This document shows positions 16,501-62,285 of a DNA stretch of 64,000 bases, in pieces. The stretch lies in assembly GCA_964017195.1 (NCBI GenBank), contig OZ024890.1:19601701-19665700 (forward strand), in the 5' to 3' direction. The translations under genes were made by a program, and so were the position numbers. The notes under the pieces are model-generated. The model was not told the DNA's origin. It made no database searches and worked only from the letters and a program-made list of their open reading frames with translations. The stretch's first letter is position 1, and each line of letters starts with the position of its first letter. The DNA is from Siderastrea radians (Eukaryota > Cnidaria > Anthozoa > Scleractinia > Rhizangiidae).

Positions 16501-17573
16501 ATCGCTCTCTCCTGTTGTGCACGGGGACTTTACAAATGACGGCGTGATGGACTTTGTCTCTTACTGTAAAAGAAGGTAAGCTTGTTCGAACGAATAATTT
16601 CCTTTGGACTGCGTTTGGCTAACAATGTAGAACATGGGGAGCGATAATTTCAGTTTGTGCGTTCGTTTGTTTACGTTTCGTGCTCTTTGTATCCCATGCG
16701 CCGTCTTACAGCGCTATTAACCAATCAGAAGTGGAATCATATCAATAGTGACCGTGCTTTTTCCCGCGCTTCGCACTGATTAGGTCGTTCCCAGTTCCTC
16801 TATGAAATACTCTAGCATTGCACCACGTAGTTGTGAGTATTCAACTTTGCACGAGTCTGGTCATTTTCTGTCCTTCAAATATGGAAAAAAGAGATTGAAG
16901 AATTTTAGTTTTCAAGACCTAGAAAATTAGTTCGGTTTACAACAACAACAACAACAACAACATATTTTTAACCAGCATTTAACAAAGGCTATTCGCAATT
17001 GGTGGTGTAACGTTTCGGTGTAAAACGAACTTCGGAATAATGCGCGTGCGTTATGTCCTCTCGGACTTGTTGTATGGACTACAGCTACCACGATGCACTA
17101 CAGACGTCTTTCAGAGAGGGAAGTGGACATTTCTCTGTTTGCTTTTGTTGTGGTTGGCAAGATGTGATTATTGTCAAAAGTTTTGACTTTTTGAAAATTA
17201 TTACAAATCTACATTATTATTGTTGGAAGGTCGAAACAGAAACATCAGACAATTTACGTTAATCCCTTTTTGTGAGGATTCAGAGTGCACAATCTCCAGC
17301 AGAAACATTTTGTAGAGAAATTTGATGTACTGTAGAAATTGCAAAATCTTCTCAAATCCTTCTTAGTTTTGGTGTGCCAACGTATATTCTTGAAAGTTAT
17401 TCTCAAGTCATTATTTCTGTATAATCAAACAAAACTTTCTCTTTAGCTATCTCGGCTTCTCTCTGGACACTAGTCCTGGATATTGGTGGACAGCGGTGTG
17501 GATTGCGTGTGGACTGGGTACAATTGTGTTGGCGGTTCTTATTCTTCGTCTCATTGAAGAAGTGATTGCGTGA
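7537..17573 (+). CDS. NERD1-like FG-GAP membrane protein, complete, 13 coding exons
   Basis: Coding exons: 7537-7724, 9049-9092, 9565-9665, 10048-10152, 10786-10901, 11366-11464, 12343-12430, 13085-13195, 14062-14258, 14655-15189, 15977-16084, 16412-16575 and 17447-17573. Phases agree throughout, giving 660 residues and a TGA stop. A hydrophobic segment near residues 20-35 and another near 630-650 predict a lumenal or extracellular body anchored at both ends. FG-GAP-type Asp-rich loops are visible: ITDLDSDGINEVIIAT, VGDVNGDNVIDHV and HGDFTNDGVMDFV. Collinear blocks (REIAVHITSYS, then GLVLVGGKM, then YALNSKTG, then LPYRW with TAHF) match remembered plant NERD1/At3g51050, a Golgi-localised protein of similar length. 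Its animal function is unknown to me. Introns hold a SINE head and two foldback elements. An extra in-frame 45-nt block at 16149-16193 with splice signals was not included. Confidence 0.85.
9131..9350 (+). repeat. Microsatellites in intron 3 of the FG-GAP gene
   Basis: CAT/ATT triplets (9131-9190), GACT tetramers (9288-9317) and GGAT tetramers (9319-9350). Confidence 0.9.
11141..11214 (-). repeat. tRNA-Ala-like SINE head or tRNA pseudogene
   Basis: The reverse strand shows an A box (TAGCTCAGTGG) and B box (GGGTTCGACTCCC). A T-stem (ATGGG/CCCAT) forms, and the anticodon loop would read GGC. The acceptor stem has two mismatches and the anticodon stem one, so a working tRNA is unlikely. It lies in the intron before the 11366 exon. 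Confidence 0.55.
12700..12910 (+). repeat. Probable high-copy repeat fragment
   Basis: It contains AATGCTCGAAACGTCAGC followed by ACCTTATCAACTCAGTTGAT, which I recognise as a string that recurs in cnidarian DNA, perhaps a retroelement 3' end. There is no coding potential. Confidence 0.3.
14320..14512. mobile_element. Foldback element in intron of the FG-GAP gene
   Basis: The left end GCAGCCTGCTAGCCTGTTC matches the complement of the right end GAACAGGCTAGCAGCCTGC. The interior is GC-rich and non-coding. Confidence 0.7.
15290..15545. mobile_element. Foldback element in intron of the FG-GAP gene
   Basis: The ends share GAATACGCGC and TCTCTCCTCCGCA in inverted orientation. The purine-rich interior also folds on itself. 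Confidence 0.6.
16939..16962 (+). repeat. (CAA)n microsatellite
   Basis: A short CAA run in the last intron of the FG-GAP gene. Confidence 0.85.
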
Positions 17574-18435
17574 CAGTAGTCACGCCACAGCTGGTTGCAT
17601 GGACAATTGGAACAAGTCGTGTGATGGTTCGGGTTTAGCTACCCCAGTTGTTCGCAGTAAAACGGCATCGCAAGGATTGTTGGTAAACAGCTGTCACCAT
17701 GTTTATCACAACAACAGCTGTCGCCTCACGTGCCTTTCCTAGCGAGAATTTTGCGTGACGTGACAAAACTGAGTTGCAGGCAGTTTCTGTTTTTCTCTAT
17801 AAATCGTGCGCCTGGGAAAAAAGCGAAAACCTGCGTACTAGTTGTGGTTTTTCGCTTCTCCCTGGAGAGTGTTGTCTAAACTAAGACACTGCGGGATACG
17901 GGCGTACAAAGATTATTAGCCTAACAAACATGGCGTGCTACATTTCTCCACGCAAAAGAGAGCGTTGACTTTTGAACAGCTGTTTCGAGCATGATTGTTT
18001 GAATGGATTTGTTGCTGTATACACTCTTTTTTTTTAAGAACGTCATTTTTTTTAGCTGAGGCTGAACCGGAACCGAATGTTCTTATTTTTTTGGCGATTT
18101 GAACCTGAAACGTTCTTAACAATGTTCTTAAGGTTAATTGAATAGTATTTCAATAAATCATAGTTCTGAATGAAAGAAAGAACAATTAGGACAAGTTCTA
18201 CCAATTTCCTAAAAGTTATAACTAGTGTTTCAGGTGTTTGCTTTATCAAAAATGGAAGATGAATGACTTCTGACGTCACAAAAATTCTAGCATTTTGTGC
18301 TCAAATAGGCTGTAAATTACTCTGACCAAGCTATAACGCTTTATTTTATTCTCACATAGCTTATTCTACAAATTTGAAGACAAGGTAAAGAAGTTCTTAA
18401 CAAAATCTCAGCCAGGGTATGTTCTTAGCATGTTC
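17574..18435. other. 3' flank of the FG-GAP gene and pre-existing GTTCTTA repeat
   Basis: No gene is visible. An AATAAA occurs at 18152-18157. Repeated GTTCTTA motifs and AAATCTCAGCC recur right of the transposon at 28516-28610, so this is a repeat split by the insertion. Confidence 0.5.
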
Positions 18436-18439
18436 TTAA

Positions 18440-18452
18440 AGTGCCACTGGGA
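18440..18452 (+). repeat. Left terminal inverted repeat of the Kolobok-like element
   Basis: AGTGCCACTGGGA, directly preceded by TTAA at 18436-18439. It pairs exactly with 28499-28511. Confidence 0.9.
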
Positions 18453-18634
18453 TCAAAATTTTGGTATTCCATTTTTTTACATTTTCGAAAATAGTTTATG
18501 GTTCTTAGTCACCATGCCAAATTTCAACTCATTACGACGACTGGAAGTCGCTTTTTTCGGACGGTTTTTGTCGAGATTTTACGGCCGCCATTACTGGCCC
18601 TTGTTCCGGAAGCTGGCTTGCGAATGAGCGGAAG

Positions 18635-18655
18635 TGACGTCAGAGGCTCACCTCA
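18635..18655 (+). promoter_or_regulatory. Left subterminal CRE-containing inverted repeat
   Basis: A palindromic CRE (TGACGTCA, 18635-18642) is followed by GAGGCTCACCTCA. The whole 21-bp block recurs in inverted orientation at 28295-28315. It lies 94 bp upstream of the transposase ATG, so it could serve as a promoter element, a transposase binding site, or both. The role is inferred. Confidence 0.6.
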
Positions 18656-18748
18656 AACCAAGTACCTGGTAACTTGCCGCGGGAAATTTAACTGTCCTCG
18701 AGGGAAGATTTCTTGCTAACTGTTCGTTGCTTCGATGCTGTAGCAGTC

Positions 18749-21700
18749 ATGACGGGCAGTACTTGTGTTGTTCAATGCTGCAACAACAAATCCGACCACC
18801 GAGCTGGTATTTCCCTTCATCGAAGCCCTGCGAGTGGACCCGTTAGGGAAAAATGGATAAGGTTTGTACGCACACACAGTGCAAATTTTAACCCGAGTGG
18901 TATTTTTGTCGTCTGTTCGAATCACTTCACAGACGAGTGTTTCCAGAGGGCTCTCCATATCGAAGGATTCAAGAGAACAATTATTCCATTGTCGGTTCCA
19001 ACAATATGGAAAAAAGAACCAGAGAAAACATTCTCTGCGCGAAAAAGACGACAGGTAGGAGACCTTATCAAGCTAGGGTTTTTCGTCATTTTGGCGGGGT
19101 TGCGCGAATTATGGCTTAAAGTAAGCTTACTGTATTGAACAGGAAAACGAGAAATCCGAGTACAAAGCCTGCAGCTGTACAAATGCATTGAAAATTAAGC
19201 AATTTATTTGATTAGTGAAATAGTTTGCGCTATGTATCAAGTTAGTAAGTAATTCCAGAACTACAATAAGCGTCTGTATAAGCATATTGCGGGCATGTTT
19301 TGAACTCCCGCCAATATGGCGAGAAAGAAAACTTTGAACAGTTTGTTTACAAGCTTATATAAAGTTGAAATCTGAGTTCAGTCTTAACTTCTAGAAAAAC
19401 AGTATTAATGGTCTTTGAACCTTTTTTGGTCGCTGCTAAGTGTCGTGGCCAACTTTAACTCCTACGGCGTGTTTTTGGTTTAGATGATGAAAGACATTCT
19501 AAATATCCCCAGCTGTACTCCCTCCCAGAAGGAAGATCAACCGGACGCAGCTACCCAAAAGTCACCGGAGCAAGAAGTAAGCTTAAGTAAAAGGCTTTTT
19601 TTAGCAATATAACACGATTTGGAGGATAACTTCAGCTTGTCTACGAATTAAGATTCTAATTTATGGCAGATAACTCGATTCCAAACTCGGATCTCCAACA
19701 CAAGCTCGGTGTAGCTTTATTTTATAGTTCCATTTCTAATAATGTCCTCTCTTTAGAGCGAGTTTGATTAAAATGTACATGTGCTCTGGATTTTTCAATA
19801 TATCATTAATCCACCGTTATCTAATTTGTAACTGATAGCCAGAAGTTCATTCGTCTCCTGCATCTGCGATGTCGATAGATGTTGACGACAATATGACAGG
19901 CACTCCTGACATGGTAATAGTTGAAAGCTCTTATTGTCATTCCTCAGGCAAACTTATTTCGTTTATATTTTCATTTTATCATTTATGACACTTATCAACC
20001 TTATTTCATCACTAAAAATTTATTTGGTGTTAATTTTGGTTCACTTATAGAGTGGTTTTCTCCAGTCCACCCAACCAACAGTGCCTATTACAGCTAATAC
20101 CCCGTCAGACACAAACCATGATTCACCATTAGTCGAGGGAAATGCGTACACAATACCAGAGGTAAGAAATCCACTGACTTGCTGACTAATAACCTAAACT
20201 GACATTATACGTATAAGTACATGCTTATATGTGACCCTACATATATTTATTTTTGTTTTTGTTTTTTTTTGGGGGGGGGGGATCAGGCCACTTAGAAACG
20301 GTTTTATTGGAAGCCGGTTTTCATGGGCTTTCAAGCCCTCTGGAAGCCACAGGGAAAAACCCTTTCTCGATCCTTTGTTTACACGCCAAAGTGAATGATC
20401 GTTCTGTATATTGTTTCACTTGTATGTGATCCTTTTTGTATTCTAACTTACAGACTGCCGCAGAAATTTCTCAGGCAGATGGCTGTGCTGACTGTGAAAA
20501 ATTAAAAAAGGAAAAGAAGAAACTTCAGCGGCAAGTGCGGACGTTGAAATGTAAAGTCGATGACTTGAACCAGAAGCTTACACTCAACCAGTCAGAGTGG
20601 GCAAAGACATTTCACAAACTAAATCAGTCACCAGTAAAATCAAAGCAACCAGCTGGTGAGACTATGTCATAAATGTGCCCATTTCATCTTCATTACCTTA
20701 CCATAATTTACACTTAGATGTACTAGCTTTACTGAAGCAGTGGTGTCCAATTTTTATTTGTCTGTGAAATTACATAACAAATGTTGAACGATAAGAAATA
20801 GAAACTTGCCGAAACAACAGGTAATATTATGTAGTGTTGATTTCAAGGTTATTTCAATTTGTTCAAGATATGGAACTTCAAGCTGCTGATGACTCAGAGA
20901 AGGAGTTCAGTGAACCAGAAGTATCATTTGACCATGGCAATGAGGAATACCAGGAATGCAATGAAGAGTGCAGTGAAAAGATGGTTGATGAAGATCCGCC
21001 TTGGACACCAGAAGAAATTGAAAACACCTATATGACAGCAGCAGATGACGATGACAGCGAAAAAAGTGAAAAACCAAGGTAATTCTATGACTGTTGGCTA
21101 GTTAAAAATTTTAGCCTGCCATCAATTGCCCACCAAATTGAAATTTTGTCCTGACAGGGTTAGAAAACATACGGTCACATAAGTCTGACAGTAGCCTGCG
21201 AGCAAGCTAGTCTGACAGGGGGTAGGAGCGGGACCCTGTACGGAGTTACCCCGGATAGAACATTGTGTAGTGAGTTCACCCTTAGGGGACAGATTTTCAA
21301 ACCTTCAAAGTCAGTTGGGATAACAACACTTGTAGAGTTGTCGCTAGGAAACAATGTGTATGGTACATTTCAAATAAGAAGGTTGTAGAGAATCGTGCTC
21401 CAGAAATGATATCCTGCTATTTTATTGTCACTCATTCACAGGTTAACTTGCGAGGGGAGGAATTATCAAGAGGAGCCCAAAGGGATTGTATTCCTATCCA
21501 AACTCCTGCTGCTCTTTCAATATTGCCATTCATGTTTTGCAAGTAGTCCTCACCTCAGTGTAACCCAAGCAGGCACCATGCTGTCGATTGTTTCAGAGTG
21601 CAGCAGTTGCGGCAGTACTCACACCTGGAACAGCCAACCCTTTCTCATGGGAAAGTTTCCAGCAGGAAACATTCTCTTGAGCTTTGCTATTATTTGTGCT

Positions 21701-22304
21701 GGTGCATCAGTGGGTAAAGTACTCCTAGTTTTTAAGCACATGGGACTACTCTGCTACAATGAAGCTACCTACTACTACCATCAGAGACATCTTCTGGTTC
21801 CAACCATTGTGAAGTTTTGGCGGTCCTATCAGGCCAAGATCCTGCAGTCACTGAATGGAAAGGAGGTTGTGCTTGCTGGTGATGGGCGCCACGATAGCAT
21901 GGGCCACTCGGCAAAATATGGTACTTATACCATATTTTGCTGCACTGTTGGTCTGATAATTCATATTGTTCTTGCCCAGGTACAGTTGTTAACTAAGAGG
22001 GTGACATACAATGTAGGTTCAGTAATTAAACTCTGAAGTGCTCAGTACTTAGATTTCTTTGATATTCAATACCAACTGTTTGCTACTATTAAACTTCAGA
22101 TGTTGTCTCTAGTAATATTTCAAAATTGTCCACAATATCACGAGTCACATGGTGGATCAATTTCCATGTACCACGCCAACCTGTGAGATTACTATTAATA
22201 ATGGCCATGGTGGAATTTTACAATATAAATGCCTTACAGGGTGTAAAGTGGGATGCACTTGAGAAACAGCAACAGCAACAACAACAATAACAATAATAAT
22301 AATG

Positions 22305-22346
<42 letters not shown>

Positions 22347-25326
22347 GATATCTTTTAGATTTTAACGTGACAATTTTTAAAATGAATTATTTTAAGTTTC
22401 TTGGCTTGTATTTATTTGAGGCACTTTAGTATTTAAGAGACTTTGAACATTTTAGCGGCATTTGTGCTTTTTATTCATTTTAGTAGAAGTTAGGTTTTTT
22501 TTTTCCTCGAAAATTAGCTGCATAGGCTACGTTCGCGCTCTGTGCATGCTATTTAGGGTGGTAGCATATATACGTCCTGCACTGTTATAATAATAATAAA
22601 AAAAAATGGAAATGTGTTTTCTTATTTTCCAGGCCAATGAAGCAGGCAGCAGCAGCAACATGGAGTTTTGGGCACATCAGAAAGCTTTTGCATTCTTGCT
22701 TGGGACTGGGATGATAATAAAGTCATTCATTTCAGATCGTCACATGGCCATAGCAAAGTGGATGAGAGAGGAATGTCCCAAAAAGTGCAAGGAGCTGGGA
22801 AAGCCAGTCATTGACCATTTCTTTGACCTATGGCATATTGGAAAAAGTATAGACTACTTTATAGTTACAAAATAATAAATAAACCAATATATACATGAAG
22901 TTGTTTGGAAAAATGCAAGCACTTACTTTCAAGAAATTGATTTTTTATATTTTAGGGACCATTCATTTTTCGAGGTGAGGTGGGCCGAGGGAATTTTAGG
23001 GGATGAGACAAGTGAAAGAAATTGGCTTCAAATCCAAGAGAAGAATTATTGAGTGTGACTATAAAGTAGGTTACTGGTAGCAGGGGAATAAAAGTAAGTC
23101 TGACTGAATAGAATTCCACCAGGTCCCCCCTCCTCCCTTATTAAAAAAATTACTGGTCCCTATAGCACGATATATATGTATTACCAGCATTGTTGTAAAT
23201 TATTATTGTTGTTAAGGTAATATGCATACCTTTTTTAAAATCATTAGAAACCATTTTCTTTACTAACAAATGTATTCCAAAATGGTTGATGAATGAAACT
23301 CTGTTCTAACAATATTTTTCGTAATAATTATGCATTTTTCTTTTCATGACAGAGCTGCAGAAGGTTTTGACAAAACTAAGTAAAGAGAAGGGGTGTGAGA
23401 TCATTGGAAGGTGGAAGCAGGCTTGTGTGAGGCATTTTTATTGGTCTGTCACCTCAACTTCACCTAAGCTTGGAGATGTGGTACTGGCTAAATTCAAAGC
23501 ATTCCTGTATCACATCATAAACCAACACAAGGATTTGCCAAACCAGCTCTTTAACAAGTGTGCTCATGGACTTGTCACAACTCAACGTGTTTGGTTGACA
23601 AAAGGTATTTGTCAATTTAACATCTGGTCAACTCATATCTTAAATTGAATGTTATTTTGACATGACATCTGAATATGTCACAAGCAATTAACAAAAATGT
23701 GAAGTTCTGTAGAAATCTGATTTAAACTTGAATTTATAAAAATCATGAAATTATAAAAATTATGAATATTTAAATCAAAAATCTCTATCAAATATTTCTT
23801 TCCATTTGTATTATAAAACTTCACATTTTTGCTAAATTCATATGGCAACCCTACTAGTATTTATGGACCATGTTTTTCATCTAATCCAGTATCAAAAATG
23901 TTAGATTCATTCAAAAAAGGGATATTACAGCATCAATGTGAGGCCATTGCTTATCATTTGAAAACCTTGTTTTGTCAGGGTCCACTGCATATGAAAAACT
24001 GTGTGAAGCCCTTACGCAAAGTTCATTGCTAAAAGGTATCAAGCAAGCATCGCCTGTGGCACAGACCAGTTGCTTGGAAGGATACCACTCCGTCGTAAAT
24101 CAGTTTGCCCCAAAGATGTTGGCATACTCCTACTTAGGCATGTTGTGTCGGTAAGTGACAGCCAGTGTTTCACAGATTTAAGTCACAGTACAGTGGTATT
24201 CTTCCAATACACAAAAGAGTATTTTAAATTTTAAAATGATCCTTGCTTAACTAGTAATAACTTTCTGAAGGCTGTATGTTACATGTAACACGAGTTACAC
24301 AATAACTAGGAAAGGTTATTGTACTGTGTGCACTTACATTTTCCCTGCATTTATAATGAATTTTCAAACAATTTCTTTCCAGGACTATCCTCTCAGCAAT
24401 ACACTTCAACTACAATCTTAAGAGGGAAACAAAGGTTGATGAGCATGGCAATGCCAAGCTAAGGGTGACTTATCCCAAATTCAAGGATGGTGAAGCCACA
24501 GTCAGAGAAGTGAAAGTGGCCCAGAATTATGGTAAGTGAATAACGTTATCAACCTGACTGTCCTGACATGAAAATGCCATGGTAACTAGGATTATTATTA
24601 TGTTGGGAGGTTTTTTTAATTGATTTGCATTTTTTTCTATCAGAGTATGTTGCTGAACTGTACAAAGAAATGATCACAACTCCAAGGGATGTGTTAAACA
24701 ACATCAGAGATGAGCTGGTTGAGGAGAACCCGGAACCTCTGCACACACTGTTGAAAGAGAAAGAAGACAAAGAGACCGCAAAGGACAAATATAAACAAAG
24801 AAAAGCAAAGGAAACCGTTTTATGTCCTCCAACCTGTTCTGGTATTTGCCTATGCGACTGAATAAAGAAAAACTATAATACTATAATACTATAATATAAC
24901 ACTGACTAATGACCACAGGAGGCTTAATTACTAGCTAACTACGTGTATGACTGGGGATGTGCTATTATTTTACATCTTTTTTTGGTCAAAAAATGTTTTA
25001 GCTTTAACTCAACTTAGCTAGCAGGGGAATGCAACCCAATACCATTCAGGCTAAAGAGGGTTACCAAAAAAATACCCTTCACAACCCTTCACAAAGAGTA
25101 ACCCTCACTACAACTTGCCATTTTCATAAGCAAAAATAAATGAAGTCATGATCATTCACCACTAACTTTCTTTTTAACAGATGCTGAGCTTGAGGCAACG
25201 ATGCAACAAAGACAGACCACAGTTCTTGGCAGAAAAAAGAGGTCACCCAGGTGTAGGAAGTGTGGCAATCCTACACGGGGCCACAAAAAAGGCCAATGCA
25301 GCATACCAGACATAACTACTCAATGA
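18749..25326 (+). CDS. THAP-domain Kolobok-like transposase, 13 exons, 888 aa
   Basis: Exons: 18749-19054, 19484-19576, 19839-19913, 20051-20161, 20454-20655, 20868-21078, 21442-21979, 22633-22846, 23353-23604, 23979-24150, 24383-24531, 24644-24841 and 25181-25326. All phases match with no stop until TGA. The N-terminal THAP zinc finger shows C6, C10, W36, C56, H59 and the SVPTIW signature. A Lys-rich coiled-coil segment follows (about 210-250), then an acidic linker. The catalytic core has candidate triad residues D480 (in DGRHDSMGHSAKY), D547 (SDRHMAIAKW) and E701 (SCLEGYHS), an order typical of RNase H-fold DDE transposases. The C-terminus has a zinc knuckle C865-x2-C868-x6-H875-x4-C880, close to but not identical with the CCHC consensus. 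Start is the ATG that opens the THAP domain. Twelve introns are unusual for a transposase. It presumably binds the element ends and cuts at TTAA. Confidence 0.88.
22267..22343 (+). repeat. (CAA)n/(AAT)n microsatellite in a transposase intron
   Basis: CAA repeats pass into a long AAT run between the seventh and eighth transposase exons. Confidence 0.9.
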
Positions 25327-26120
25327 TTAATAACATCAATGAGTAATCAATGAGTAACCAGATGAGTAAAGTAAACACAAAAATTTTTCCTGGGCACTGA
25401 TTACTCATTGATGGAATCATTTCAAATTGAGTACCCATTAATTACTCGATGATTACCCATTTACTATAAAGTTTTAATGTTCTGCCTTCTTGTATGAAAA
25501 GATTTTTTTTTTTTTTAAGTAAAGAGTGATCAAATGGGGTAGACAGGCCTAAACACTTGACCTTGCAAGAACCGCCAAAGTCTGGTTCAACAATAAACAG
25601 CAATGCAGGCAGAATACTGAAGGGGCAACAACATCAACAGCAGCATCAGCAGCAGACAGTGATAGTGTAATCCTGTTGACAGTGATAGAGCTGAGTTAAT
25701 AAAGCCATGCACAAAGTTAAAATCAAAATAACTGTTATCATTTTTATACCAGGGGCTGTCCTTAGTCAGGCCTCTCTCCCTTGACCAATCCGGCTCAGTT
25801 GTACTGGTGACTGAAGTCCCAGCCGGAGTAGCTCTTGGGTTAGAGACACTCAAGCTCCACCACCACGACAAGGTGACATGCCCAGGGTGGAGAAAATGAA
25901 TATATTTTAAATTACATTTCAGTCTCTCTGATAAGTTACAAGACACAATGACTGACTGACTAACTGACTGACTGACTGACTGACTTGTTACGGTCATATA
26001 GCATTACAAAGATATCGCGTTACCTAGATATGAATAGTCCATTGTGCTCCTCAGGAACCCTCACCTCACCAGATCAACCATCTAGAAAGGGGGTGCTAGC
26101 AGGATACAGTCTAAGATACA
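25327..26120. other. Convergent spacer inside the transposon
   Basis: About 800 bp separate the stop codons of the two transposon genes. It contains a plus-strand AATAAA at 25592-25597, usable by the transposase transcript, and a GACT microsatellite at 25949-25985. No coding sequence is recognised; the Ser-Gln-Ser-Val run on the reverse strand is a translation of the microsatellite. Confidence 0.6.
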
Positions 26121-28265
26121 TTAATCATCCTCCTCATAGCCCTTATATCCATCGACCTCTGTAGGAAAAGTCTTTCGTATACTATTATAAACACAACAGG
26201 GAAGAGGGAGCCTGTTGGATGCCCCAACATATTCCCAGACCAGTCTAACGAACTGTCTGTATGAAACAGACCTGAGGAATCTGTAAAAAAAGAGAATCTG
26301 AGAGTCATAAACAGGGACCTAAATTAAGAATTTAGTTAATGTCTTTCAATAACATGCACATGTACCATTTTTTTTTGGTTGAGACTGTCAAGAGCTGCAA
26401 ACAGACAACTCTACATAGCATACATGTTGACTTACTTTTGTAATAATTTTAAATGTGTATGGCTAAAAAATACGACAAAAGCAATTCTAAAGTATGCAGT
26501 TTTGTCTTTTGCAGCCCCTGACCATTATAAAGATGGGTACATGTAACTCCCTTTCACGCAAAAAAAAAAAAAAAACATGAACATAGTAATTCCCTGTAAA
26601 AAAATTCCCTGAAAAAAAATTTACACTTGCCTTAACATGAAGTTCCAAATATAAGCCCTAGGGTTATATTCATTCAAAGGGTTTTCTTGGGGATGTATTT
26701 CCAGGGAGGGCTTATTACTACCAATGCGCCCCCAAAAAGCAACCAATCGCATTAAAGTCTTGGCTTCCTCTAGTGACCATTTGGAACACCTCAATTGTTC
26801 ACATGACATTCCTTGAGGAATCAGGTCACTTCACATGGTCACATCAGCTATCCAAAAATGTAAATCACGCAAATTAACCTTTTTATCAAAATCGTTTCTG
26901 GGGTGCAAACAGGTTGGAGAATTCAGCAGCATTGGAGGGCTTTTTTAAATCTCCAAATGGATTGGGCATTTAAAATAATAAAAACAGCTTTAAACACAAA
27001 AACAACAGCTAACAGTTCATATTGGGAGGGTTTACTATCAGCATGACCTTTGCATCTGAGATTTGGGGCCTCCAAATTCTGAATTTTAATAACAATAATT
27101 CCAATTTTTATTATAATTATAATAATTCAACAGTATAACATCAATTAAAATTAAATTGGGCTATTGTATAAAATATGACCCTGCCCCCGGTGAAGAATAA
27201 TGGAATTCTTTGTGGGATCAGAGTGAAAATGGTGGAAGGGTAAAAAAATCAACAGAATAATGAATTCTTTAGGGGTAAGGGTCAAAAACAGCTGCATTTT
27301 TTAGGGGTCCAGGGGTAGAACTCATATTATCCTTCAAATTCTTTAAGGCTGAACAGAGATTGCATGGAGTTCTTGAGTGGTAAGAGAGAAAATACCAGTC
27401 CTCAAAAGGGGGGGTGGATATTTAATGCAATGACCCAATGCTCGGAAAAATAAAAAAATTCAATCACAGTAAGCCACAGGGGCTATTGAAACCAGGAAGC
27501 CAATTTGTTTTCCAATAATTGCTTTTTACTTCTTTTTCTCCTACTTATATCAAAATTTGACCTAAAACAAGCATGGGTCATGGAAGTCAAGGAAATCATA
27601 ACCAAAGATAAAATGAATGACATTAAAACAAAGTCTCCAATCTAGCACCAATAACATCACTCACTCATGCTCGGCTGTGTCCCCTTGAGCTAACATGGTG
27701 GTGTACGACCTCTTCCTTTTGGTCTTTAGACCAATGCCTGCGGTGTGTAGTACCCAGCGATTCAAACAAACATCGGTAAAGCCGGGATGCATGGTAATGC
27801 AGTCTCCTTCTCTCTCCAACTCCTCCATCCTTTCCACGCACCTATTTACCTCTACACAGCACCTACATTCTTCGTGTTTCGCCACAAACTCCAGCGAACA
27901 GTTTGAACATTTGCACCTGAGAAACAAGCGAATCGCAAAACGGATTTACATCAATCCGTAAATTAACAAGAAAAAAGACAGAAGGGCGTAATGTATAGTG
28001 GAAATATAGCATTAACAAACCAGTGCTCGACGCTCTCTTCTCCTGCGAATCTGCTCCAAAGAATCTCTTCCTCTTCTTCTTCCTCTGCCACTTGCTCTGC
28101 GTAATGAGCCGCTTCTTGTTCTGTGGCGATTGGTTCTATACTTTCATCGTACGGCAAGAAATATTCTTCTGCCGAATGGAACGAACCCTCGGACGTTTCG
28201 GAACCTGAAGATTGTTCCAAATCGGAGGAATACTCTTCGGAGATTTCCCATTCGGAGGCAGACAT
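26121..28265 (-). CDS. P2X7 C-terminal (ballast) domain-like protein carried by the transposon, 3 exons, 215 aa
   Basis: Exons in transcription order are 28265-28021, 27916-27665 and 26271-26121. Both junctions keep phase and end at TAA. Residues 1-80 are acidic and Ser-rich (MSASEWEISEEYSSDLEQ, then a Glu run). From residue 82 the protein reads as a Cys-rich domain like the cytoplasmic ballast of vertebrate P2X7: WCKCSNC (82-88), ECRCC (98-102), C108, C121 in CITMHPGF, and C132. It continues with YRQFVRLVWEY (170-180), LPCC (189-192) and a terminal GYKGY. In P2X7 the equivalent region binds zinc and guanine nucleotide. No transmembrane segment or channel domain is present, so this is a free ballast-like protein. 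The ATG at 28265 lies 30 bp inside the right CRE block. Its role in transposition is unknown; DNA binding, nucleotide sensing or an accessory role are possible. Confidence 0.85.
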
Positions 28266-28294
28266 GTTGAAGTCAAAACACAAGAAACAGCGAC

Positions 28295-28315
28295 TGAGGT
28301 GAGCCTCTGACGTCA
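28295..28315 (-). promoter_or_regulatory. Right subterminal CRE-containing inverted repeat
   Basis: This is the exact reverse complement of 18635-18655, with TGACGTCA at 28308-28315. It sits 30 bp upstream of the P2X7-like ATG. Confidence 0.6.
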
Positions 28316-28498
28316 CGAGCTATTAAAATTGCGCAATCACCCAGGAACATGTTTTCAGTAATGGCGGACACATTTTACGCGACTTTGGAGCTAAAAAATA
28401 GTGGGATGGAAGGTTTGTTGTTCAGTTTTTTGGGCAAATATAGACACAACACGATATTCTCCGACAGAATCTGGCCGAAATAAACCAACCAATTTTCG

Positions 28499-28511
28499 TC
28501 CCAGTGGCACT
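28499..28511 (-). repeat. Right terminal inverted repeat of the Kolobok-like element
   Basis: TCCCAGTGGCACT, the reverse complement of the left end, followed by TTAA at 28512-28515. Confidence 0.9.
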
Positions 28512-28769
28512 TTAATATTTTGGCAAATCTCAGCCTCGACGTTCTTATAAAAAAGGTTCTTATAAAAAAAAGGAGTGTATGTTGTTCTTATAAAAAAAAA
28601 AAAAAGGGAGTGTATGTAGTAATGAGAGGATTGGACTTTCGGCCTGATGGTCGGAGGATCGAGTCCTTCTGCCTTCATGAAAAGCTGGCGGGTATTAAAC
28701 CTACCCAGAGAGGAGTATTAGTATTTTTAGCTAAAAGGTCCCCGCCAACGAGCTGCGGAAATATCTATT

Positions 28770-29005
28770 GTTGTGATTGTTGCGGATACAATGTTTCTCT
28801 AAACGTTTCCCTGTTTACGCGCACACAAACTGAACAACTGTCGCGGAAACACTTTTGCTTCCGTGAATCCGCGAGACAAATAAATGGTTGTGGCTTTTTT
28901 AAGAAACATTTTTTTCGCCACAAATGTTTTCCTGCTTGCGTGCCGAGAAAATATTTTGGGAAAAAGTGTTTCCGCAACAATGTTTCTGGGTTTGCGAGGG
29001 CCTTA
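28770..29005. mobile_element. Imperfect palindromic element
   Basis: TTGCGGATACAATGTTTC at the left is mirrored by TTCCGCAACAATGTTTC at the right. GCGGAAACACTTTT recurs inside. Confidence 0.4.
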
Positions 29006-29169
29006 AGCTTACGATAGCACTTTTTTGGAACTGACATTGTTGGCATGAGTACAAATCGTTTTTCTTGCCAAGAAACCTGTGAATAAAAGAAAAAACACCG
29101 ATTTTTTGTCGAGCAAATCCCAATATATGTATGCATTGTTGTTGCAATGTAATTGTTTGTTCCTTTGTA

Positions 29170-29331
29170 CAGTGGAATCCCGACAAGGGACTGGCAAGAT
29201 GTGTTCGTTACAATGGGGGCTCGTTATATCGGGGTTCTTTTTCATACATTTTACTATTACTGGGCCGAAAATATGGTTCATTATTTCGGGGTCTTGGTTA
29301 TATAGGGGATCGTTTTATCGGGGCTCCACTG
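29170..29331. mobile_element. Tc1/mariner-type MITE, 162 bp
   Basis: Inverted ends CAGTGGAATCCCGA and CAGTGGAGCCCCGA are flanked by TA on both sides (29168-29169 and 29332-29333). Confidence 0.75.
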
Positions 29332-30729
29332 TATCTTTTAGTTTCTACCCGTCGGCGGCCAAATTTACCTAACACTTGGACTCACACAAAGATATCTTTC
29401 TATTTAGGCGAATTAAAAATTCTTTTCACATTGGCGAGAAGCAATTGTTAAGCCGCCAAGAGCTTGATGCAATCCTAATTAAAATTGAATGAGAAAATAA
29501 ACGCCACTTTGCGACGGTAACAGAATAAAATCTTTTCACCGCAGTAATAATTGTACAACTGAGCAAACACAATAAATCTCTTCCGATGATATCATCTCGG
29601 GTGGTTAGACCCTATGCAAACATGTCAGCGATTTACTTTACTGAAATAATGGCTTCGCTCGTTAAAAGCTTGTTACATAAAAAAAATTTAATTGATTTTC
29701 AATGCAGGTTTTACCCTCAAGTAACTATGGGCACGGGTTTAAGTTAATTATGTTTCTTTCTTCGAAGCTTGTCGATACAGTCGCTTTTTCTCGGAGTTTG
29801 TGTCTTATTTGTCTTCAATTTCTTTCCGCTTCGAAATTTACATTTCGTACGAGCTTTTTATGTTTATCTCATAAGCATAATCGAAGAAATTGTACTTTAC
29901 GGCCGCTGTTTGCCATTTCTATCAGTTTACCGCAAGTTGGCTCTCCCGCAAAAACAAAAAATTGCCAGCAGCTCTCCACAATGACCTGAAAAGAAGCCGT
30001 GAATGTACCGACATAAAACTGCTCCTGATATTTGTTTAGGTTCTCTTTACGAGAAAACTAATCTTTCCGCTCGCAATGTTCGTCCATAGCAGTCAATAAA
30101 GCCATTTGCCGCTTGCTAATTCCCCGAACAAAGCAACCCGAAACGAGTTTGCAGACAGATGAATGAATCTGAAATTTTGATGGCACACGCTAAGTATTCA
30201 AATTGACGTCTGCAAACTTAAATACTGGGAAAATATGTCAGAGTACCCAGTTTCATCCGTTTATGATATAGCGATGGAATATCGAGTTATATATTTTGCC
30301 GCGAACTACGCGGCAAATTTTTGCCGCCAACTTGACAAAAAGCAAATCGCGAAATTAAACATTTCTGGTTTCGAATTTTAATTGTCGCTCTTTCTCCTTT
30401 TTCCGCCAACTTAAGTAAACATATTTAGAAAAAAGCATTTGTATAGGACTATGCGGCCGCCGGCAGTTTGCATGAAAAGAAAATTTAATTACAATTTAAA
30501 CGCGAAACTACTAGTTTAGGCGTAGTCTTAAAAAATTCGATTAAACCATCTTAAGTGTTTTGTAAATTTTATTACTTTCAAACGTGCGTCAATTCAGTCC
30601 GCAATCGAACAAAACACTGAATACATGGTTGTTTCTATAAAAATATTACTGTACAGTTCATTCTTTATCCATAAATAATTAATATATATGAAAATACAAA
30701 TAGTAACTCGATAGATTGTATCAAAATAA

Positions 30730-32343
30730 TTATTTCAAAGCCATGGCGTTTTCAATGAAACGCTTCATATCAGTATCTTGAGCCATGTCGATAGGTAGCA
30801 ACCCGTTGTCAGTTTCTGTAAATAAATCTGCGCCATGTTCTATTAATATCGATGCTGTAACAGCATTTCCTTCTCTCACAGCCTCGTGTAGGGGACTGCT
30901 TCCGTTCAAAGATTGTCTGTTCACCTCAGCCCCGTGAAGAAGCAGTAACCTCACGCCTTCAGCATCGCCTTTCGCTGCCGTCTCATGAAGAAGCGAAACG
31001 CCACAGCTATTTAACTCGTTTACATTGATAACTTCTTCGATTGCGCTCGCGATCGGAGCTCTAGAAACGTTAGTTCGAGCGTTCGCATACAAGGCGGGAG
31101 ATGAATATCTTCGCGGTGAAAACTGATATTCGTCGATTTCTATCACGCGCTCTTGATTAGGAAATCTTCCGATCTCCGGGGTAATACTGGAGGCACGTAG
31201 TCGATCATGTTCGTAAACCGAATTGTTCTGCTTTGCCGTGGTTGGTGCTGAAAAACGCCGCGGTGTGTAAAACCGTTCATCCGGCTCTATCTCGTGGTGT
31301 GTGGAATGTTTTCCGGGCTGTGGGTATATGTTCATTGAAGTCGCACGCATTCGATCATGAATCTTGTATTCCTCCGCCCTCGAGTTATTGTTTTGCTTGG
31401 CTGTAGTTATTGTTTCAACATTTCCGCACTCGAACCTGTACAAATTAACCACAGAATTTGTTGATCCTGAGCTGTATGCTGAGTCGGAGGAAGTTGAAGA
31501 ATCGGACGAATTTGAGCTTAAGGAAGCTGTGGACCGTCTTTTGAAAATCTCTTGTCGACGTTTTCCGCATTTAGGACAAAATAAACATGTTCCCCCAACA
31601 CCACCACCGTCAAACTCGGCCCGATTTCTCGTACTTTCGAGAATATTTCCAGTGGGTAATGCAACACCGGTAAGACGTGGAATATCCATTAACCCTTCCC
31701 GATCTTTATCTCTCGTCTTGACATTTGCGGTTGGAAGTCTTGGGTCGTCTACGGAACTGCGCCTTTTTTGCGTTTCAGCCAAATTCAAAGAAATATTTGA
31801 AGGCAGAATTTCGCTCGCAGCTCTCCGTCGCTCTTGTTCAATTTCCTCTGCATCGTTTCGTTGTAGCTTTTCCTCGAGAAGTTCACGCACATCAGGCGTT
31901 CTTTTTAGGTACTCCTCGACGTCTCTGGCTAAACCAGCGCGCCGCATGCCTTCAGCGAGAATTATGACAGACTGTAGATCGCGCGCTAGGTCAAGCGCTT
32001 GTTCCCCCTGATCGTTTTCTAAGCCCAGTGGAGCACCCATGGCAATAAGATAGCGCATGATGGAGTAATTGCGCGCCACGGTTGCAGCGTGCATTACGCT
32101 CCATCCTTCTTTGTCTTGAATATTCATGTCTGCGCCGTAAGTTACGAGGAGTTGCACGAGCTTTAGATTCCCCGTGAATGAGCTCCGTTGGAGAGCTGTA
32201 ATGCCGTCTTCGTCGATATCATCGACGTGGAACTGCGATTCGTTCTGCTCGAGAAGAAATTTCACTCTCAAGACGTCTTTGCTGTGTACTGCTTCGTGGA
32301 ACAACTCCACGGGTTTGCGCTTCACGGCGAATTTTCTTAACAT
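30730..32343 (-). CDS. Ankyrin-repeat protein with MYPT-like N-terminus, intronless, 537 aa
   Basis: A single uninterrupted ORF runs from the ATG at 32343 to TAA at 30730. The frame stays open a few codons upstream, but there is no earlier ATG. The first ankyrin block (about residues 10-125) contains DEDGITALQRSSFTGN and DKEGWSVMHAATVARN. Its order and spacing recall the myosin phosphatase targeting family (PPP1R12/16), as does the following Arg/Glu-rich helical segment (about 130-190). The middle is low-complexity, with a Ser-rich stretch (SLSSNSSDSSTSSDS) preceded by a Cys cluster (CLFCPKC). A second ankyrin block (about 440-525) includes GVSLLHETAAKGD and GSSPLHEAVREGN. No convincing PP1-docking RVxF precedes the repeats: the only RVKF lies inside an ankyrin helix. 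It may be a scaffold; exact orthology is uncertain. Confidence 0.8.
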   Translation of the reverse strand: MLRKFAVKRKPVELFHEAVHSKDVLRVKFLLEQNESQFHVDDIDEDGITALQRSSFTGNLKLVQLLVTYGADMNIQDKEGWSVMHAATVARNYSIMRYLIAMGAPLGLENDQGEQALDLARDLQSVIILAEGMRRAGLARDVEEYLKRTPDVRELLEEKLQRNDAEEIEQERRRAASEILPSNISLNLAETQKRRSSVDDPRLPTANVKTRDKDREGLMDIPRLTGVALPTGNILESTRNRAEFDGGGVGGTCLFCPKCGKRRQEIFKRRSTASLSSNSSDSSTSSDSAYSSGSTNSVVNLYRFECGNVETITTAKQNNNSRAEEYKIHDRMRATSMNIYPQPGKHSTHHEIEPDERFYTPRRFSAPTTAKQNNSVYEHDRLRASSITPEIGRFPNQERVIEIDEYQFSPRRYSSPALYANARTNVSRAPIASAIEEVINVNELNSCGVSLLHETAAKGDAEGVRLLLLHGAEVNRQSLNGSSPLHEAVREGNAVTASILIEHGADLFTETDNGLLPIDMAQDTDMKRFIENAMALK

Positions 32344-35300
32344 CGCGATCAGAGTCCTCGTCACCGCAGATAAATCCCGCGTTGTTGTTGTGGAAACAGC
32401 TAGCTATTCTTTGAGAGGTGTAGCACACGTCTGTGTCGCGTCGTGGCTTGTTGCTTCTGAAAACTGGCCAGGTTGAGATTCAAAGGAAATTAGCACCTTA
32501 CGTGCACCAACAATGCACCGGGAGCCCCCGCATACAAGCTCTGTAAAGAAACAGTTATATCAACATGTCAACCTGTATTGTTTCGATTGATTGCTCGCAA
32601 TGACAGTCAATTGACGTAGGTATTATCAGCTCTTATTGCCTGTCTCCAGTTGAGATAATGAATGTCCTTTTGTGGAAGCGGTGGTTTCGGGGTCATGTCC
32701 GTTAGTTTGTTTTACGAGTGCCTTAATTGTGATTTCGTTGTCATTTGTTTTGAGGCAATTTCAAGAGTGTCTCGTCTCTGGGACTTATTAGTCCGCATAG
32801 CTCAAATACACTTGGTGCGATATTTCATTTGTTTCGCATTGTTTACCAACATTAAACACCTTTTCTTTGTCCTAGTTAAGACACTCATCAAGCTTTTTAA
32901 TTAATGCCTCTAATCAAAACCCGATTATTGTTGGTGCGTCTGAACAAATGTTTTATTGAAAGCTCTTAAAATCCTCCGACTCGGCAGTTCGGCATTTCAT
33001 CAGAAGATGCTAAGGTTCAAAGCTCAAGTTGGTTCATGTGACAAAACTAATACCAGTAGAAATGATTCAACTAAAACTTTTATCAGTCCTTGGTGCATGA
33101 TTATTATCACGGCACGAAGAACTGATAGAAATTTCAATGCTAGTTTTCCACTTCGCTGCTTCTGAGAGTGGTCTGGAGTTCTTGTAGCAAGAAGTTTACA
33201 ACTACAATATACAGCTATTTGCATAATACAAGCATTCTACTTTTCTCAGAGAGAAAAATAGCATTTTTACATGTTAACACGCTATGCAGGCCTACAACAC
33301 TGTTCCGAATGAAAAAGCTGAAAAAGGCTGGAAGCGCCATAAAATTAAATTAGCTTGTGATACGTGATCAAAATTTCAACTTTGTTTTCTTGAAATAGAA
33401 TCGATATCAATATCACTGGTTATTGTTTAGAACACTAGTCTCTCTGAGGTGTAACCACAACAGATATTGTGCAAGCACTCAATAATTGCCTTCGGGCTGA
33501 TCATGAGAGCGAGAAAATATTTCTTTCATAAAATAAAACATAGAAACACGAGTTGTATCTCGGTAACCAGACGTTTGTTAAGTGCTCTTGAAAAATAGTT
33601 TGACTTTGTTTTGATTTCTCCGAGCCGAATCTCGAGCGTTCAAACGCGTTCCTATAAGTCTGGGGTAAAAGCAGCCTTCAAAATTCTCTGCAAAAATACT
33701 CGAGTTTTTGTGCAATACTTACCGGTGCTGATCAAATTTTCTTAGTGGATTTTTTTAGTAAATTTGTGTTAAGTGATTTTTCTTTCACTCAAAAGAAATA
33801 AACGGTTCAATTTTCCTCAAAATCAGTCCATTTTTCCCGAGTTTTCATGAAGTAAATGCCACGGATGGCATGCACCGGTAAGCATGGTAAGCTTATTACC
33901 AACTAAGGTAGTTAAGATTTTAAGCACTGTTCGAAGCGAGCCGGCACTGTTTGTAGAAACAAAAGTAATGTTTTCAAAAACTGACCTTTGATGATTTGCA
34001 TTGTTTATAAGATCAATAAGACGCGACATGGAAATCTGTTAAGGGCAGTGTCACACTTATTTTTCTTTAGAAAAACATGAAACGGATATGCCTACTGTGT
34101 TCTGCCGCAATCTTTACATGGACCAGTGATCCGCGGTAAACCTACCTCACCAGTCGAAGTAAACAGTGAATCTTTTTAAGGCTCGTTGAGAAAATCTATT
34201 TTCAAAATAATGAAAAAACAAACAGCACCACAGTAATGTATGCTCAGTAGCTTTTATTTTAGTGTTAACACTTAAAAAGAATTTCATCCACAGAGTCCAA
34301 AAGCTTTAAATTTTGATTCACACGACTGGGGACTTGATCACGACGTGACTGTGGCAGTGTAGGTTTAAAAATAGTCGGTGTGCAAAAACCGCTTAGCTGT
34401 ATACGCCCCGGAAATGTTCTAATACAACACTCAGGAAGGAACTCAAGAGGTCTTTTTAAAACCAATTATGCATCCCTCGCGGATTGAATTCCATTCTTGA
34501 AAATTTATCTTACATTAGTAATTGGGACGTAGTCATATTTAAACTGTCTGTCATTGCAGTTGTGCGCCTGATAAGATAAATTCCCGACCGATGATACCGA
34601 TGTGCTCGAGATATAGATGCTTGATCAGTTCCCAGCAAGAAATATCCTAGTTTGTTCTTGATATGAGTGTTTCTGCTATTTGTTAGTTCCTGGGTGTGTT
34701 GAAGGAAATAAGACCAAATAAAGGTTTTGAGGAAAGCCTTCAATATATGGCCGCATCATGTATGTTTTTACGCACTGGCTGGGTTGACCTTTAGGTTGTT
34801 TCGTAGAGTAGCGTGGCAAACGGTGCAAGGTTTTGTAGTCCGGCATTACAAAGATTATGTTTCAAAAGTGAATTGGCGATTACATTTATACTCGCCAGAT
34901 TCTGTCTGAGAACGTTGCATATAAAACGAAATGAAGTAAGTAGTTGAAATCTGTAATAAATGTGATTTGTGTGGGTTGTAGAGGCATTTCTGATGTTTAT
35001 CTGATATGGTCATGTAGAAAGAAGCTAATTTCCTAAGGGGGGCGACGTTCTGGAGCCCTTCTGGTGGTGGTGGTGGTGGCGGGGGGGGGGGGGGGGCTTT
35101 GTATGGCAAACGGCTGCTGAGCCATTTCAGTTAAGCGAAAGGGGTCTGGGCAAGGGTAACAGTGGTATTGTCCTAGAGTATTCATTAATTAATAAGCGCG
35201 CTACGTACAACTCGGGAAGCCATATAATGAAACAAGTTTTAATCTGAAAATTGTGGTTACGGGGGTGGTGTCAATTTTTGGTTTTCCTCGCGTGTGAGTA

Positions 35301-60910: not shown

Positions 60911-61825
60911 TCAGTTTTTTATATTCAATAGGTTTCTTACGGCCTGTCGTATCTCCCTTATTCGCCAGCAATACACAAGTGGATTCAAACACGAGTTGAT
61001 GAAAACAGCTGTTGTAACGTATATGTAGGCAATCTTAACTGCTCTGTTGTACCCGATAAATGTCTCTACCAGTGTTATCACACAAAATGGAAGATAAAAA
61101 ATCAGTAGCAAGGCATAAAAATACAGCACAGTCACTGCAGATTTTCTACATTTGAGCATGTTCACCGCATTGGCGCGAAGACCGGCTGCGTTTTGGTCTA
61201 CTATCTGGCGCTGATGTCTTCGAACCATCTGGAATATTTTTGATGTGCTGAAAGCAGTAACAACGAAAGTTAAAAGAAACACTGATGGGGCATAAGTAAT
61301 CCAGTTCCTTAACCAGAACCTTAACACAACACCAGTTATACAAGTCGTCCATAGGATGCAAACGGTTATAAATACGCGAGAAACTGTGACGATCATGTTG
61401 TATCGCAAATGAAGGGTTAATGCAAGAAGGCGATCGATGGACACAGCAGCTAAAGTCAGATACGATACACCAGAAGTTATCCAGCTTGCTATCACATGGA
61501 TTATTCTCAGCGTACAGTACGCACTAAAACTTTCCACAAGTTCAGCTATCACATACGCCACAAAAAATGGCTGGCAAATCAGTCCAACAATAAGGTCTGA
61601 AAACGCAAGGCAACACAAAAGAACGAAAGATGGCGAATGTAGTTCCCGAGTTTTTCTGATCGCCAGAAGAATAACACAGTTTCCCGAAACAGTCACTAGA
61701 GAAAACATTACGTTCAGAATGCATACGGTAATATTTGCGATAAAATCGTCTTCCGAGTTTTCCAAGTTGACATGCAAAAATAGACATGATGTTGGCCGAG
61801 TTTCGTTCATGATCATGATTACCAT
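60911..61825 (-). CDS. Class A (rhodopsin-like) GPCR, intronless, 304 aa
   Basis: The single ORF shows seven hydrophobic segments and class A landmarks: N49 in SGNCVILL (TM1), D77 in LAFSDLIVG (TM2), DRL at 131-133 in place of DRY (TM3), W159 (TM4), P246 in FYLPFC (TM6), and NPLVY 281-285 (TM7). A short C-tail follows. The N-terminus has an NETR glycosylation site at residue 7. In-frame ATGs occur at 61825, 61816 and 61810; the third gives a start closer to receptor norms. Ligand and coupling cannot be read from the sequence; cnidarians have large lineage-specific families of such receptors. The left duplicate at 55865-58545 is dead, so this is the surviving copy. Confidence 0.9.
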   Translation of the reverse strand: MVIMIMNETRPTSCLFLHVNLENSEDDFIANITVCILNVMFSLVTVSGNCVILLAIRKTRELHSPSFVLLCCLAFSDLIVGLICQPFFVAYVIAELVESFSAYCTLRIIHVIASWITSGVSYLTLAAVSIDRLLALTLHLRYNMIVTVSRVFITVCILWTTCITGVVLRFWLRNWITYAPSVFLLTFVVTAFSTSKIFQMVRRHQRQIVDQNAAGLRANAVNMLKCRKSAVTVLYFYALLLIFYLPFCVITLVETFIGYNRAVKIAYIYVTTAVFINSCLNPLVYCWRIREIRQAVRNLLNIKN

Positions 61826-62285
61826 GACAAATCTACTGTGCCTAACGAATCGACCATGAACAGTGAACGCTGTTAGAACAAGCGATTGAAGCGATGATAT
61901 TTGAATTCTGGATCATGCAAGAGAAAATTATTATTGTACAGTTATAATTTGGTACAGTGTTTGTTTTGAGAAGAAGAACTCACCTGCCTTTTTCCATTTG
62001 ATAAAAAGAGCTTAAAGGCGTGATGGACATTTCCTAAAAACAAACATTACTTTTCAAGAGACTTTTTTTAATTAAAAACACCAATTCACGCAGATTAATT
62101 AAACGATACTGATCTAAGCAGCATGGGTGCAACTGTAGTAGACCCTAGCGGACGGTTCTTTTAAATTTATCTTTAAGAAAGATCTTTTTATGGTTTTTCG
62201 TGGTTGTTCTAATGAAACGATATCTTATAACTTACCAAACGTTATCTCGAGATACTGACGTCTCCTGAGTAGATCAGTTACCGTA

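Follow-up and report, generated by a model that had tools for sequence, protein, structure and literature searches.

What is a free-standing counterpart of the cytoplasmic ballast of the P2X7 receptor doing in a coral genome, and does it belong to the host or to a mobile element? The question is raised by a gene at positions 26121..28265 of the window, the stretch of 64,000 nucleotides from Siderastrea radians that was analysed here. The feature is very probably KolX, carried by a Kolobok DNA transposon of the Kol0 type that looks complete, occupies 18440..28511 and is flanked by TTAA duplications.

The gene lies on the minus strand, with its ATG at 28265 and the end of its stop codon at 26121, both exact. 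The splice model has three exons separated by GT-AG introns: exon 1 (28021..28265) contains the ATG and encodes an acidic N-terminus, exon 2 (27665..27916) contributes six of the seven zinc-cluster cysteines, and exon 3 (26121..26280) holds the YRQF and LPCC blocks and the stop. The spliced product has 218 residues, correcting the 215 given by the sequence-only reading, which had rightly recognized the cysteine pattern and the two blocks (residues 173-176 and 192-195), as seven aligned cysteines now bear out. It had also described the protein as lacking a channel, and the Pfam scan finds no channel domain in it; the window protein is thus not a P2X7 receptor, which joins a P2X channel to the ballast. 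A 117-residue protein (P0184), encoded by a public contig of 6267 bases, is 99% identical to the product of KolX exon 1 and continues into the intron in the same way; it stems either from this locus in a different assembly or from a sister copy.

The relation to P2X7 was examined along the lines that the sequence-only reading had proposed, namely a profile search, a structure prediction and a comparison of the zinc site. The window protein matches the Pfam family P2RX7_C (Pfam ID PF20478) with an E value of 1.1e-9 and 38.9 bits, above the cut-off of 23.5. A single-sequence phmmer search of the PDB gave no match at 1e-3, so that profiles were needed to see the relation there; a profile (A1) of 21 sequences, consisting of the window protein and 20 relatives, matched nothing but P2X7 in the PDB at E<=10, with four distinct sequences, the best at 6.3e-5. 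Cysteines C477, C479, C482, C498, C499, C506, and C572 of P2X7 align with C83, C85, C88, C101, C102, C121, and C195 of KolX, so all seven zinc-cluster cysteines have counterparts. By this alignment KolX keeps the P2X7 zinc cluster, with zinc binding putative, and the protein would fold around zinc. Two of the five GDP-site residues are kept (the equivalents of R546 and R578), and those of H547, R574, and K583 are not. The residue list comes from section 9 of PMC7016195 (Rump 2020), where it is not a condition of membership, and invertebrate ballast sequences are described there as keeping the same two residues.

Structure prediction from the 21-row alignment reached a pLDDT of 49.5 and was excluded from the Foldseek search, and 45 more diverse rows raised the pLDDT to 75.9. 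The best Foldseek E value was 2.0e-3, with all values above 0.001, the query being a modelled KolX relative and not the window protein itself. Profile and predicted fold together show a probable P2X7 ballast fold for the KolX family. The window protein thus resembles the P2X7 ballast in profile, in the predicted fold of its family, in the seven cysteines and in two GDP-site residues, and it differs from it in the missing channel, in the extra cysteines C99, C108, C132, and C194 and in the acidic N-terminus.

To locate the ends of the element, TTAA pairs within 17000-31000 with a spacing of 7 kb or more were compared (n=1075). The pair at 18436..18439 and 28512..28515 encloses 10,072 bp with the termini AGTGCCACTGGGATCA and AGTGCCACTGGGACGA, which differ at 2 of 16 positions, compared with 6 for the next best pair; in 60 dinucleotide shuffles the best terminal mismatch was 4 to 6 each, and none reached the observed value of 2. 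The left terminal inverted repeat (18440..18460, plus strand) begins with AGTGCCACTGGGATCA, and the right one covers 28491..28511 on the minus strand. Further inside, a 22-nt subterminal repeat at 18634..18655 is 100% complementary to 28295..28316. The element contains two convergent genes, each beginning just inside one terminus, a THAP-type transposase on the plus strand and KolX on the minus strand. The left subterminal repeat lies upstream of the transposase ATG and the right one upstream of the KolX ATG, and the matching copies would co-regulate both genes. The left and right terminal regions are alike only over short blocks, which span 22, 32, and 12 columns of the alignment.

As the left end, a TTAA near 18034 was rejected in favour of the 18436/28515 pair, which has matching termini. 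The outer repeat formed by 18019-18055 and 28544-28580 lies outside this pair, and the flanks beyond the TTAA (18018-18070 and 28519-28615) are partly inverted copies of one another, sharing ATACACTC, a T-run and AAGAAC; an older inverted-repeat element may have been the target into which the Kolobok inserted. Nothing in 17000-30000 matched Rfam at the gathering score. Elsewhere in the window, a 557-residue open frame at 30730-32403 (minus strand), which has ankyrin repeats close to each of its ends (Pfam Ank_2, E value of 3.8e-35), is perhaps an intronless host gene, and an open frame at 60911-61912 (minus strand) matches rhodopsin-type GPCRs (7tm_1, E value of 9.4e-21).

The transposase gene (18749..25326) was modelled with 13 exons and encodes 905 residues with no stops, including THAP, DDE-like and DLWH blocks. 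Its first exon (18749..19054) carries the THAP domain (Pfam ID PF05485), matched at 2.5e-12 when the open frame containing it was scanned. The model shares 618 of 896 aligned residues with a Montipora capricornis protein (P0040), and both have the AGDGR, SDRH, DLWH, and CLEGYHS blocks, taken by eye as a candidate DDE triad and C/DxxH signature in the sense of section 3 of PMC9587614. C and H residues are present between the DxxH and the last E, the place of a putative zinc finger. Pfam detects no transposase domain beyond THAP in the window model and none in P0040, and five transposase relatives in a scan of seven proteins match the Mutator-like transposase family (Pfam ID PF20700). Because some relatives carry PF20700, Kolobok-like transposases appear in Pfam under a Mutator-like label. 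The relatives P0077 to P0128 are named as coming from amphioxus, a crinoid, a priapulid, a nemertean, ticks, and teleosts, some of them carrying PF20700.

The TTAA 4-bp duplication, the 5'-RR (AG) termini with inverted repeats and the THAP domain would together mark the element as a Kolobok, to judge from its sequence. TTAA, AG/RR termini and a DDE transposase are described for this superfamily in PMC9587614 (Kojima and Bao 2022) and PMC6004289, and THAP in the latter. The Xenopus XKol elements of PMC6004289, with lengths of 6.8 to 13.9 kb, are like the window element in TTAA, AG termini, THAP, and, as read by eye, DDE; neither KolX nor P2X is mentioned there (0 hits). Kojima and Bao reported Kol0-lineage KolX as clearly similar to P2X7 476-595, with Kol0 ranging over vertebrates, annelids, cnidarians, and sponges. 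The window element shares with their description a second protein beside a putative DDE transposase, its similarity to the P2X7 ballast, the TTAA target and the RR termini, and the presence of KolX, the mark of Kol0, was judged from the ballast protein between the ends. By its ends, its motifs and its KolX gene, the element is probably a Kol0. The proposal of the sequence-only reading that the ballast is transposon cargo therefore stands in one part, the gene lying between TTAA and inverted-repeat ends, and gives way in the other, since KolX fits an accessory gene of a Kol0-lineage Kolobok and not a passing cargo.

The gene pair could also be a domesticated host locus, with the coral keeping transposase and KolX for a host function and the old terminal repeats still visible. 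Both genes are open across many exons, the terminal regions agree only in short blocks, and Kolobok domestication has been reported in Xenopus (PMC6004289). The persistence of the TTAA duplications and AG termini and the intact, catalytic-looking transposase blocks speak against this, and so do Xenopus Kolobok elements that were judged probably active and whose termini likewise have several mismatches (Table 5 of PMC6004289). We regard domestication as unlikely, and the reading as a Kolobok with its own KolX gene is retained.

We scanned the genome (804.8 Mb, 439 contigs) with profiles and scored 150 of 499 P2RX7_C candidates, which gave at least 149 places at E<=0.001; the list is incomplete, because the window's own intron-split KolX is absent from it. 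Twenty of these places (L-numbers below) were examined in 10-kb stretches. Many copies in this coral are intronless with open reading frames, and those ranked highest among the matches listed have the P2X7 cysteine spacing. They are without the two inserts of the window type, one between the CC pair and the next cysteine and a second one further on, which set the window protein apart from P2X7 as well. The window KolX thus differs from the intronless copies in its introns, and from these and P2X7 in its inserts; the KolX of PMC9587614 may share both features.

A profile of ten intronless KolX sequences matched P2X7 at 3e-25, compared with 6.3e-5 for the window-type profile, the intronless copies having been chosen with a Pfam model that takes its name from P2X7, which tilts the sample to P2X7-like copies. 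Apart from P2X7, a single unrelated chain came up at E<=1 (0.97). By these sequence profiles, the intronless type is nearer to P2X7 than the window's own type. An unrooted tree of 35 rows places the three P2X7 tails on one side with 14 intronless copies, and 15 window-type and three other cnidarian rows on the other (98/97); L010, L011, L014, L016, and L017 were left out as near-duplicate or masked, and L028 as yielding no frame. A topology that joins P2X7 to the 15 window-type rows was rejected (p-AU 0.0028), and one that places P2X7 beyond the intronless group, on the branch leading to the remaining rows, was not (p-AU 0.32). The P2X7 branch is long (2.4), making its placement less sure, and because all organism-named rows among the 104 proteins of the profile search for distant relatives are cnidarian, the tree does not reach across phyla. 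We suggest tentatively, at somewhat less than even odds, that the P2X7 ballast came from a compact, intronless KolX sublineage with P2X7-like spacing and that the intron-bearing sublineage of the window split off earlier.

The P2X receptor family of this coral is represented by 21 exon matches in three clusters, all on contig C11, and the window is on C4. The clusters lie at 7.376-7.385, 8.296-8.322, and 9.287-9.298 Mb, spaced by about 1 Mb. Among the 149 places listed, none is within 1 Mb of a P2X cluster, the nearest being about 1.8 Mb away. Two ballast profiles run over about 7 kb past the last matched exon of each cluster gave no match (best E value of 0.36), and both positive controls, the window gene and L012, were found.

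These results bear on the direction of transfer. Capture of the ballast by transposons from a host P2X7-like receptor gene would be compatible with the unrooted tree, but it is very improbable: no ballast was found in the roughly 7 kb downstream of the coral P2X clusters, the domain is not joined to typical P2X outside vertebrates, and it is found in cnidarians and a sponge, the latter two points being described in PMC7016195. The direction from transposon to receptor rests on the distribution of the domain and on PMC9587614, which agree with it. That paper derives P2X7 from a fusion of a P2X4-like gene with KolX, and our data agree with this published conclusion for the vertebrate tail. The sequence-only reading had likewise considered an origin in a mobile-element gene, along with the reverse direction; the idea, likely rather than proven, agrees with the distribution and the paper and was already in print. 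The link between transposon and P2X7 dates from 2022, and this locus adds one more example to it. We found no further paper on a KolX or P2X7-Kolobok or P2X7-ballast-transposon link, most subscription journals being outside the coverage. Free ballast (ZCD) proteins, corals included, are described in PMC7016195, and NANOR and these proteins share with the window KolX the form of short soluble proteins with a zinc-cysteine domain. The word transposon is absent from that paper (0 hits for 'transpos'), which also describes tick ORFs with a TolA or 'TAHP' domain before the zinc-cysteine domain; in PMC9587614, Nanor is proposed to be a KolX that was domesticated.

The surroundings of the 20 places tie the family to transposons. 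A tblastn search with 93 transposase relatives (E<=1e-3) found a transposase-like match near KolX at 14, 10 of them strong (E < 1e-14) and 4 weak (L009, L010, L011, L019), and in 14 of 14 the match was on the opposite strand and convergent. The 10-kb stretches at the remaining six gave none, the reach upstream of KolX being only about 2 kb, and several of the 20 are copies of one family and hence non-independent. TTAA with inverted termini (<=3 mismatches of 16) surrounds KolX at five of the 20 (L011, L013, L020, L024, L026). As a small control, five stretches of 8 to 14 kb from elsewhere in the window were compared, and they had no transposase match. The ballast domain is thus dispersed through the genome and co-located with transposase-like sequence, bearing out the transposon linkage that the sequence-only reading had supposed. 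That reading had named two findings that would count against it, the absence of any profile or structural relation to P2X7 and the nesting of the gene within transposon-free host genes, and neither was found. That KolX is an unrelated host gene lying inside or beside a transposon by chance, as the six loci without a match might suggest, is scarcely credible given 14 always convergent matches, the TTAA and inverted-repeat ends around KolX in the window and at the five loci, and the matchless control pieces.

The stretch 17000-30000 shares no DNA match of at least 60 bases with the 20 other loci except a simple repeat in L019, and the window element is therefore taken as another subfamily. In one KolX family, dN/dS was 0.08-0.22 over a 112-codon core in four copy pairs, those of 153 with dS between 0.05 and 1.2, which share copies and show few differences. 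Such low values point to selection on the protein, as far as these sequences tell, and KolX most likely has a working role in the transposon. It would serve transposition, most likely as a partner of the transposase or a regulator; for a direct role we see about an even chance, and KolX might act as a transposase partner or as a DNA or nucleotide sensor.

The coral genome independently confirms that an accessory protein of a transposon in another animal consists of a domain known from an immune receptor of medical importance. The distinction of two KolX types shows which transposon proteins merit tests of zinc and nucleotide binding. If the derivation from the intronless type is true, present-day transposon proteins, made originally for transposition, would give access to the tail of P2X7.
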